64,000 nt of DNA, from assembly GCA_013214705.1 (NCBI GenBank), contig JABSRZ010000004.1, positions 434,001 through 498,000 of the forward strand, given 5' to 3'. Source of the stretch: Hyphomicrobiales bacterium. Lineage in GTDB: Bacteria > Pseudomonadota > Alphaproteobacteria > Rhizobiales > OSC116. Shown piece after piece: positions 21,491-28,763 of this stretch. The notes beneath the pieces were generated by a model, which saw only the letters and a list, made by a program, of their open reading frames with translations, did no database searches and was not told the origin of the DNA. Each line of letters begins with the position of its first letter. Within the stretch, counting starts at the first letter, position 1. The translations under genes were made by a program, and so were the position numbers.

Positions 21491-21540
21491 CTATTTTCTA
21501 ACCAAAGAAAAAACATCGCGGGTTGTGACGTAATTTGGGC
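21491..21540 (-). pseudogene. C-terminal remnant of a second flavin reductase gene
   Basis: The minus strand encodes SPNYVTTRDVFSLVRK and a stop, matching the last 16 codons of the intact flavin reductase next door (GPNYVTTRDSFSLIRK) at 13 of 16 residues. Many synonymous positions differ (for example CGC versus AGA for Arg, TAC versus TAT for Tyr), so this is an old paralogue that had been under selection, not a recent copy. Everything upstream of this fragment has been replaced by repeat locus B. Confidence 0.75.
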
Positions 21541-21910
21541 TGGAGTTTCCGACGCAGAGCCAGCAGTTGAAGCTGTTAAGACACTGGCAGTTAGCGCTCC
21601 TGCCGGTGCACTGGAAGTCTGCATTTATACGTTCTTTCGGCTTCGCCTCTTTCACTGTTATCACTTGCGTGCGAACCCACACACTAGCGTGTGCGTCTTC
21701 TAGCCTCCGCGCGTTGGCCTCAGAGTTTGCCGTACGGCTTCTGGGCGCACTCGCCGAATCGCAGGGGTTCTTGCGGGTAGACAGAAACTCAGCATAGGTT
21801 TGCCGAATATCATGGGAAAAGGGGCGAGCCAATTTATTGGCGAACTTGCCGACTGAGGCCGCCGTTAGGCGTAGCAAGCAAACGGAGTTTGCGCACGCAG
21901 TGTTAAGCAA
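21539..21910. repeat. Structured repeat locus B (inverted module 1 plus module 2)
   Basis: Contains a full minus-oriented module 1 (21539-21793) whose inner end, AACTCCAGC, abuts the flavin reductase remnant, and a plus-oriented module 2 (about 21819-21910). Hairpins here are CACAC-GCTA-GTGTG, GGC-GAA-GCC, GCC-GTAC-GGC and, in module 2, CAAAC-GGA-GTTTG. It lies between genes that run in the same direction, unlike loci A, C and F. It ends about 10 bp from the intact flavin reductase stop. Confidence 0.8.
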
Positions 21911-24561: not shown

Positions 24562-25245
24562 TTAGGCCAGTTTTTTGCCCATAACACCGTCAAAATCAAC
24601 AATAAACTGTTTAATCAATTGGTTGAAATTTACCGGCACAACCGCTTGCACCGATTGCCTATTGCGCAAAGCATTCTGCCATTTTTTCACATGTTTTAAG
24701 CCTTTAATAATGTCCAAATCAAGTTCTTTTTCGAATATGTCTAAATACCTGAATACCGGTGCATATACAGCATCAACCGTCGAGAATTTATCACCGGCAA
24801 ATAAATCGCCCGATGGGTTTTTGGCAAGTTCGGCATCTAGCAAGGTGAATTTACTGACAATGTCGGCTTGTGCCACATCAACCGCAGCTTGATCTGTTTG
24901 GGTGTAATAGGCCCACATTGTCATGGCCAAGGCGCTGGCAAATTCGTTCCAACTTCTATGGCGCGCACGCTCTAGGGCATCTGTTGGGTGCAGTTTTGGC
25001 ACGGTTGTGTCTTCTAAATATTCTAAAATCACATTGGATTCGAAAATCACCACATCATCCTTGCCATCTTCACTTACAATCAGCAACGGCACTTTGCCCA
25101 GCGGGGAGATTTTTAAAAACCAATCTGGCTTATTTTTCAAATCGATGTCTTTACGTTCGAATTCTACGCCTTTTTCGGCCAATGAAATGGCAGCACGTTG
25201 CACAAATGGGCATAAAGTGTGGCTGATAAGAGTTAATTTTGACAT
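24562..25245 (-). CDS. Glutathione S-transferase family protein
   Basis: 227 residues with the GST N-terminal thioredoxin fold: LISHTLCPFVQRAAI (Cys12 in LCPF), then SPLGKVPLL with the cis-Pro, and FESNVILEYLED, which binds the glutathione gamma-glutamyl group. A helical C-terminal domain follows. It is transcribed divergently from a MarR regulator across a 113-bp region with three evenly spaced palindromes, so it is probably the regulated target of that MarR protein. Substrate unknown. Confidence 0.9.
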   Translation of the reverse strand: MSKLTLISHTLCPFVQRAAISLAEKGVEFERKDIDLKNKPDWFLKISPLGKVPLLIVSEDGKDDVVIFESNVILEYLEDTTVPKLHPTDALERARHRSWNEFASALAMTMWAYYTQTDQAAVDVAQADIVSKFTLLDAELAKNPSGDLFAGDKFSTVDAVYAPVFRYLDIFEKELDLDIIKGLKHVKKWQNALRNRQSVQAVVPVNFNQLIKQFIVDFDGVMGKKLA

Positions 25246-25272
25246 TCATTATCTTTCTGAATTGATATTTCG

Positions 25273-25338
25273 ATGCAATTGCATGAAAACCAAATATAGA
25301 TGCAGTTGCATGCATTGTCAAGGTTGATGTAATTGCAT
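25273..25338. promoter_or_regulatory. Three evenly spaced MarR-type operators
   Basis: ATGCAATTGCAT (25273-25284, perfect palindrome), ATGCAGTTGCAT (25300-25311) and ATGTAATTGCAT (25327-25338) start exactly 27 bp apart between the divergent GST and marR genes. Each is preceded by G and followed by G or C. Size and symmetry suit a MarR dimer. The equal spacing suggests cooperative or stepwise occupancy covering both promoters. Confidence 0.85.
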
Positions 25339-25358
25339 CTATATGCTATTCAGTTAGC

Positions 25359-25799
25359 ATGAATGAAAACAATATTAGCGATTGCCAAATATCTTGCCAA
25401 GCTTGGGCGCAATTTATGCGTGTGTCTGGCAATTTATTGCAAAAGGTAGAAGCCGACTTAAAAGCCGCCGATTTGCTGCCGCTAGCTTGGTTTGACGTGT
25501 TGTCAGAAGTGCGGCGCGCACAGCCAAAATGGCTGCGCCCGATAGACATTCAGGAAAAAATGCTGGTAAAGCAATATAATATGTCGCGGTTAATTGAGCG
25601 CTTGGCCAATGAAGATTTGGTAGAACGCAAAAGCTGCGATTGCGACAAACGCGGCATGTATATTGTGCTGACCGCCAAAGGCAATGCAGCGCTGGACGAT
25701 ATATGGCCAGTGTATAAAGCCGCAATTGACCAACATTTCGGTGATAAATTAAGCCCTAATGAAATAAGCAGTTTGATGAAAATATTGGGCAAATTGTAA
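25359..25799 (+). CDS. MarR-family transcriptional regulator
   Basis: 146 residues with the MarR winged helix: PIDIQEKMLVKQYNMSRLIERL (recognition region), VERKSCDCDKRGMYIVLTAKG (the wing with the conserved DxR) and flanking dimerisation helices. Cysteines in CDCDK next to the wing could sense oxidants, by analogy with redox MarR proteins; this is inference. It is divergent from a GST gene and probably represses both genes through the three palindromes between them. Confidence 0.9.
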   Translation: MNENNISDCQISCQAWAQFMRVSGNLLQKVEADLKAADLLPLAWFDVLSEVRRAQPKWLRPIDIQEKMLVKQYNMSRLIERLANEDLVERKSCDCDKRGMYIVLTAKGNAALDDIWPVYKAAIDQHFGDKLSPNEISSLMKILGKL

Positions 25800-25806
25800 A
25801 ACCACA

Positions 25807-26269
25807 CTCAGAATTTCTGTCTACCTCCAAGAATCCCAGTGATTCGATGAGTGCGACCAGAAGCTGCACGGCAAACTATGTGGCCAACGCGCGGAGGCTA
25901 GAGAGCGGAGCGAACGCACGCAAGTGTCAACAGTGAGCGCAGCGAACGTATAAATGCAAACTTCCAGAGCACTATCAGGAGTGCCAACTGGCTATGTCTT
26001 TACAACCTCAAACACAGATCCACCGGCCGCAACTCCAGCACAAAATTTCAACTTCACAGCTTTTCAGCAAACTCAGGGTGGCGCTCCTGCCTACGCTCTG
26101 GAAGTCTACATTTTTTCGCCCACCTTTCGGCGGGCTAGTGGCACTTGCGTGCGCTCGGCACGGCCTCGCTGGCCTCCGCGCGTTAGCTGGCAGCGGCTTC
26201 GAACGGCGGCATTCGCACTCACTGAATGGCACGTTGTGTGGATGCGAGGGGCAGACACAAACTCAGAAT
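25807..26269. repeat. Structured repeat locus C (inverted module 1 pair plus module 3)
   Basis: Fills the gap between convergent marR and a TPP-enzyme gene. It has a plus-oriented module 1 (25807-26039), an inverted truncated module 1 (about 26040-26188) and a module 3 end (about 26189-26269). The extremities are inverted copies: CTCAGAATTTCTGTCTACC on the left, and the complement of GATTCTGAGTTTGTGTCTGC on the right. The right end reaches the last base of the TPP-enzyme stop codon. Hairpins include GGC-CGT-GCC and CCCGCC-GAAA-GGTGGG. Confidence 0.8.
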
Positions 26270-28432: not shown

Positions 28433-28524
28433 AAAAACCCCCTAAAAATTAAATCACCTTAGGTGGTAGAATATGAATAAGTCAACAATTTGGCCAACGC
28501 CAAACACCCAACACATATCGCACC

Positions 28525-28720
28525 TTTCCGCATACCCCCAAGAATCCCTGCGATTCGGCGAGTGCGCCCAGAAGCCACAAGGCAAACCCAGCGGCCAACG
28601 CGCGGAGGCTAGCCGACACTTGCAAAGCAAGTGGCTGCGCACGCAAGTGCCAACAGTGAAGGAGGCGAAGCCGAGAGAACGTATAAATGCAGACTTCCAG
28701 AGCATTTGCAGGAGCGCTAC
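28525..28720 (+). repeat. Structured repeat locus D (single module 1, plus orientation)
   Basis: One plus-oriented module 1, from CCCCCAAGAATCCC to GCAGGAGCGCTA. The outer TCTGAG terminus is missing. Hairpins: GCC-ACAA-GGC, CTTGC-AAA-GCAAG and GGC-GAA-GCC. It lies just downstream of the TIGR04141 gene and faces, in inverted orientation, locus E on the other side of that gene. Confidence 0.8.
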
Positions 28721-28763
28721 CTATAAACACCATAAATAATTCAGATTTTTGACATATAAACCA

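Follow-up and report, generated by a model that had tools for sequence, protein, structure and literature searches.

The 113-bp gap (25246-25358) that separates a divergent glutathione S-transferase (GST) gene on the minus strand from a marR gene on the plus strand would be a two-promoter switch under the control of its own MarR repressor: bound to three 12-bp palindromes, the protein would occlude both promoters, from which a ligand would release it. To this explanation as a whole we assign a probability of about 0.8. The palindromes, which follow one another at start-to-start steps of 27 and 27 bp, lie exactly where the initial annotation of the window (the whole 64,000-nucleotide stretch analyzed) had placed them (Table 1), and it is very probable that the divergent MarR uses them as operators. 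The evidence, obtained by computation from sequences, comprises the sites themselves, their conservation, their fixed register with -35-like hexamers, the linkage to GST genes and the covariation of the sites with residue 72 of the repressor.

Table 1. Coordinates of the genes, putative operators and predicted promoter elements of the GST/marR locus in the window.
Feature	Position	Strand	Sequence	Remarks
GST gene	24562..25245	-		227 aa; SspA/omega-like, CPF motif; presumed regulated target
Operator 1 (op1, putative)	25273..25284		ATGCAATTGCAT	about +3 to +14 relative to the predicted GST transcript start
GST promoter -10 (predicted)	25293..25298	-	TATATT	from the promoter scan of the window
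Operator 2 (op2, putative)	25300..25311		ATGCAGTTGCAT	within the GST promoter's spacer (17 bp)
GST promoter -35 (predicted)	25316..25321	-	TTGACA	TTGAC conserved
marR promoter -35 (predicted)	25324..25329	+	TTGATG	2-bp gap to the GST -35
Operator 3 (op3, putative)	25327..25338		ATGTAATTGCAT	bases 1-3 form the second half of the marR -35; remainder in the marR spacer
marR promoter -10 (predicted)	25347..25352	+	TATTCA	weak; separated from the -35 by 17 bp
marR repressor gene	25359..25799	+		146 aa; PF12802, 45.8 bits (cut-off 27)
Gln72 codon	25572..25574	+		in the predicted recognition helix; counted from the start at 25359

The identity of both genes was confirmed by domain models. The GST carries the N-terminal (PF13409, 71.2 bits) and the C-terminal (PF13410, 36.3 bits) domains of the family, PF13417 and PF02798 also scoring above their cut-offs, and its nearest solved structures are SspA and GST omega-1. 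The regulator is recognized as a winged-helix MarR protein by PF01047 (27.2 bits, cut-off 24.6) as well as by PF12802 (Table 1), and it falls outside the E. coli MarR orthologue model NF008565 (34.8 bits at a cut-off of 240). Its relationship to SCO3205/AbsC-type proteins extends over the whole domain (residues 15-143; 1.8e-13 for PDB 3zmd and 3.1e-08 for PDB 3zpl): the actinobacterial AbsC of Streptomyces coelicolor (3zmd) is the best solved sequence match, with 54 bits over about 130 aligned residues, and SCO3205 of the same species (3zpl), also of the MarR family, is the second best.

The rarity of the cluster depends on how strictly the motif is defined. Within one mismatch, ATGCAATTGCAT occurs at 34 places in the 3.5-Mb genome, op1-op3 being the sole cluster, and at this density chance would give about 0.009 pairs at distances of up to 27 bp, and about 5e-6 triples spanning no more than 54 bp. 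With the loose motif TGCANNTGCA (at most one of eight positions wrong) the window holds 35 sites, the simulation mean being 61, and triples within 100 bp appeared in 10 of 60 Markov-simulated windows, so that the loose motif alone is insufficient to establish the significance of the cluster. The reality of the sites is settled instead by their conservation upstream of marR. Homologues of marR were collected from the same genus and order and from named genomes, for which the 80 best of the 559 confirmed stretches were used; among the genus and order matches that had no locus, 20 were added, and the analysis passed over the others, in the main weak hits or second ones. The resulting 156 loci were reduced to 139 distinct ones by identity of the sequence around the marR start. 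Of the 139 loci, 137 carry a loose-motif site in front of marR, whereas a control stretch of the same length taken from within the gene contains one in 7 of 139. Since the Bradyrhizobium-type loci are numerous and alike, the counts were repeated with the proteins clustered at 80% identity, and the proportions persisted (74/75 for the site, 6/75 for the control). A locus was labelled as having three sites when it showed exactly two gaps under 60 bp, one of them of 26-30 bp; L033 and L079 were counted among the two-site loci spaced 26-30 bp because of an extra overlapping fourth match.

The collection also brought to light a homologue without a recognizable site in an entry titled Oceanobacillus sp. 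HTM 045 (Bacillota; L065), which groups with alphaproteobacterial proteins and may reflect contamination or transfer. Fragments of marR were encountered in genomes of the same genus (G005:C109:1164-1310 and G001:C3:9791-9922), one of them with an internal stop, which suggests decay or extra copies.

Elsewhere in the genome, single copies of the 12-bp site were inspected at 11 loci, none of which showed clustering; eight lie inside a reading frame of at least 100 aa and three (L010, L173, L175) do not, and a wider regulon is not claimed from them. An LdtR-like MarR gene (L004:1474-1983; 246.9 bits, just below the cut-off of 250) has a perfect ATGCAAATGCAT at its 5' end, which may be the gene's own operator.

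The gap between neighbouring sites has a conserved content of its own. Both TTGA and TCAA are present in 68 of the 86 gaps between site pairs spaced 26-30 bp, where shuffled gaps would give 0.4, and in 29 of the 38 pairs spaced 26-28 bp that remain after 80% clustering. The exact register TCAA-NN-TTG|ATG at a site was found in 103 of the 139 loci and is absent in 36, the next commonest offset accounting for 8. Among the 103 register-anchored loci the marR-strand hexamer is TTGATG in 82, and the hexamer on the opposite strand begins with TTGAC in 91 (TTGACT in 44, TTGACA in 32, TTGACG in 13 and TTGACC in 2). We read these hexamers as two back-to-back -35 elements of sigma-70 type. In the window scan the predicted GST promoter, TTGACA-17-TATATT, matched at 11 of 12 positions; the putative marR -10 matches at 3 of 6 only, and this promoter was not among the calls of the generic window scan. 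In the three-site loci, the mean number of TATAAT matches plotted against spacer length gives a shallow peak at 17 bp on both strands, and in the two-site loci spaced 26-30 bp the corresponding peaks are at 18 bp (marR) and 16 bp (GST).

The position of the marR start codon points to a further peculiarity. In the window the ATG comes 6 nt after the predicted -10. Counted from where the marR -35 begins, 29 of the 32 three-site loci have an in-frame start codon at a distance of 33-37 nt, at which transcription should itself begin, and on this ground the marR mRNA of the three-site class is predicted to be leaderless. A Shine-Dalgarno-like sequence precedes 4 of the 41 starts found at this distance in all site classes. 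Among the two-site loci spaced 26-30 bp a start at 33-37 nt is present in 6 of 41, and the usual one is situated about 20 nt further on.

From this anatomy a mechanism may be proposed. The GST promoter and the marR promoter (TTGATG-17-TATTCA) would be arranged back to back, their -35 elements being 2 bp apart. A MarR dimer on op2 would cover the spacer of the former, a dimer on op3 the -35 and spacer of the latter, and a dimer on op1 the first transcribed bases of GST, so that RNA polymerase would be excluded from both promoters; two sites would thus guard GST and one marR. A ligand or an oxidant, perhaps a GST-related toxicant or conjugate, would free the DNA of MarR, and both genes would be induced. 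As to the nature of the ligand, Trp16, invariant in alignment A1, matches the Trp of the AbsC/SCO3205 salicylate pocket (Trp18 in AbsC, according to the accessible part of PMC3737563), which hints at a small aromatic compound.

The promoter layout also accounts for most of what is regular in the spacing. The initial annotation had correctly equated 27 bp with about 2.6 helical turns and had proposed that an exact 27-bp period favours wrapping or stepwise binding of the dimers. This proposal finds no support in the homologous loci, as the 27/27 arrangement is confined to the window among the 32 three-site loci (28/27 being the arrangement in its two congeneric relatives), and an exact 27-bp periodicity was accordingly rejected as a conserved design. 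The step from op1 to op2, on the GST side, measures 19-22 bp, placing the two sites near the same face, in 28 of the 32 loci, and 27-28 bp in four, three belonging to the window's genus and the fourth being L083; the second 27 is thus close to being restricted to this genus, and on the protein tree the group with the 27-28 bp step requires two changes. Free drift around the GST start region explains the op1-op2 spacing best. The step from op2 to op3 measures 26-28 bp because both sites flank the back-to-back -35 hexamers, and it is best explained as one operator fitted to each promoter. A repeat spacing that resembles a rule of protein assembly would then be a by-product of promoter layout.

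The closest competing account is compatible with this best explanation and adds a second constraint to it: the promoters would set the coarse distance between op2 and op3, and the dimers would gain some cooperativity at 27-28 bp. We consider this addition possible but rather unlikely. The tightness of the spacing speaks for it, as 79 of the 82 adjacent pairs that lie 26-28 bp apart (2.5-2.7 turns; four of them op1-op2 pairs) are at 27 or 28 bp, and the single-dimer footprint of about 22-24 bp, given for SCO3205 in the accessible part of PMC3737563, would leave neighbouring dimers 3-5 bp apart. However, the alternation between 27 and 28 bp comes down to a single base in the interval from op2 to the GST -35, and the loci tolerate the turn of about 34 degrees that this base gives the dimer.

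A stronger version, in which the 27-bp step is itself a design for protein-protein contact or DNA bending and dimers on opposite faces cooperate or wrap the DNA, appears improbable to us. It can invoke the same 82 pairs and the two dimers of Mycobacterium tuberculosis Rv2887 seen on a single 30-bp duplex, on faces almost opposite to each other (PMC5526998, in the part available), but it is at odds with the short op1-op2 step of most three-site loci. Moreover, where op2 is missing, the op1-op3 distance ranges over 40-50 bp and many helical phases, and the back-to-back -35 elements are often retained there (L028, L031, L161, L167); the loci with TTGCAA-type sites, mostly devoid of the back-to-back promoter layout, drift through spacings of 26, 29, 30, 31, 34, 37 and 38 bp.

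The assignment of the sites to the neighbouring MarR, rather than to some other protein, receives support from the predicted recognition helix. Residue 72 is Arg or Lys in 12 of the 139 proteins, all 12 of which are accompanied by TTGCAA-type sites, and it is Gln in all 116 loci with clear ATGCAT-type sites; of the other 11 loci with Gln72, nine have mixed sites or no usable ones, and in two (L040, L041) the only site is a poor one that resembles TTGCAA. Gln72 aligns without gaps with Arg72 of SCO3205 (identified by its sequence TRSRLSH), which in the solved complex touches a DNA base or the backbone, as stated in the accessible part of PMC3737563; the same part gives for SCO3205 the consensus TTnAAnnnTCAA, which starts with TT, and this combination with Arg72 is consistent with the residue-72 rule. 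Residues 100 and 65 covary with the site type as strongly as residue 72 does; in the alignment with SCO3205 the counterpart of residue 100 is Gln100, which contacts the backbone (PMC3737563, in the part available). The minimum number of site-type changes on the tree is three, and the well-supported branches force only one, so that independent support for the rule is limited. Should the residue-72 code hold, one could predict the operator type of regulators in this MarR branch from their amino acid sequence.

Together with the conservation of the sites, this covariation makes the proposed role of the palindromes as operators of a GST/MarR divergon very probable. That a different regulator reads them, the neighbouring MarR being incidental, is highly improbable, since the sites accompany marR in nearly all loci and their outer base tracks residue 72 of MarR. 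Its one attraction comes from the same genome, where the only other tandem site pair was found beside a different MarR (L177), its similar TTGCAAATGCAA sites indicating that related sites are not unique to the GST-linked MarR. In this second MarR divergon (L177:1008-2957, C16) the regulator, an unassigned MarR, stands opposite homogentisate 1,2-dioxygenase (hmgA, 643 bits), and the two TTGCAAATGCAA-like sites, located at 1501-1539, are 29 bp apart with TTGACT between them. Some MarR-family proteins are activators, and MarR could conceivably be mainly an activator or dual regulator of GST acting from op3 with op1 and op2 for fine-tuning, a very improbable reading, as op2 in the GST promoter spacer and op1 at the GST start region occupy the positions expected for blocking the polymerase and the Bradyrhizobium-type two-site loci retain op2 along with op3.

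MarR-family proteins characteristically recognize a pseudo-palindrome in their own promoter region and leave the DNA under the control of a ligand or of oxidation, and the locus would be one of the already known self-repressing MarR divergons. In E. coli, the marO operator bound by MarR lies between the -35 and -10 hexamers and mediates self-repression. The promoter-internal operator and self-repression would be shared with the window, whereas E. coli MarR controls marRAB, with neither a GST nor back-to-back promoters. SCO3205, as would be the case for the MarR of the window, acts in a divergent intergenic region; it has two operators there instead of three, and the accessible part of PMC3737563 names no GST partner. 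Its consensus, which is also that of the AbsC type, is not followed by the sites of the GST/MarR locus, which are ATGCANNTGCAT-like. Rv2887 is a MarR repressor as well, with a 27-bp DNase I site; its two dimers take 15 bp each of one duplex (PMC5526998, in the part available), whereas the palindromes of the window are separate and promoter-tied. In the literature searched we recognized no paper that dealt with the MarR-GST switch, with the use of ATGCANNTGCAT as an operator by a MarR protein or with residue 72, which does not demonstrate absence from print.

A divergent GST accompanies marR in 123 of the 139 loci, and by the test used the other 16 show none. Two kinds of GST take this place: one like that of the window and, in Bradyrhizobium and relatives, an orthologue of GstA (representative L088, 247 bits, cut-off 198). 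Some loci also have a DoxX or a Rieske gene in between or alongside. As two different GSTs are coupled to the same switch, we infer that the regulator serves GST chemistry rather than one enzyme. We see about even chances that these loci represent one widespread, self-contained alphaproteobacterial MarR-GST detoxification switch, characterized by operators set into back-to-back promoters, a predicted leaderless repressor mRNA (in the three-site class), the swapping of partners between two GST kinds (plus DoxX and Rieske) and a residue-72 code in which Gln reads ATGCAT and Arg or Lys reads TTGCAA. The analysis provides a precise, testable regulatory anatomy for the MarR-GST pair across many alphaproteobacterial families, and the pair is a candidate biosensor for GST substrates.

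Apart from the switch, two short open reading frames of the window, 21491-21910 and 28473-28739, have the translated phrase VKEAKP..RINADFQ in common. The stretch that follows marR (25850-26250) resembles 21491-21910 and 28454-28739 by eye, and the three may be copies of a dispersed intergenic repeat.
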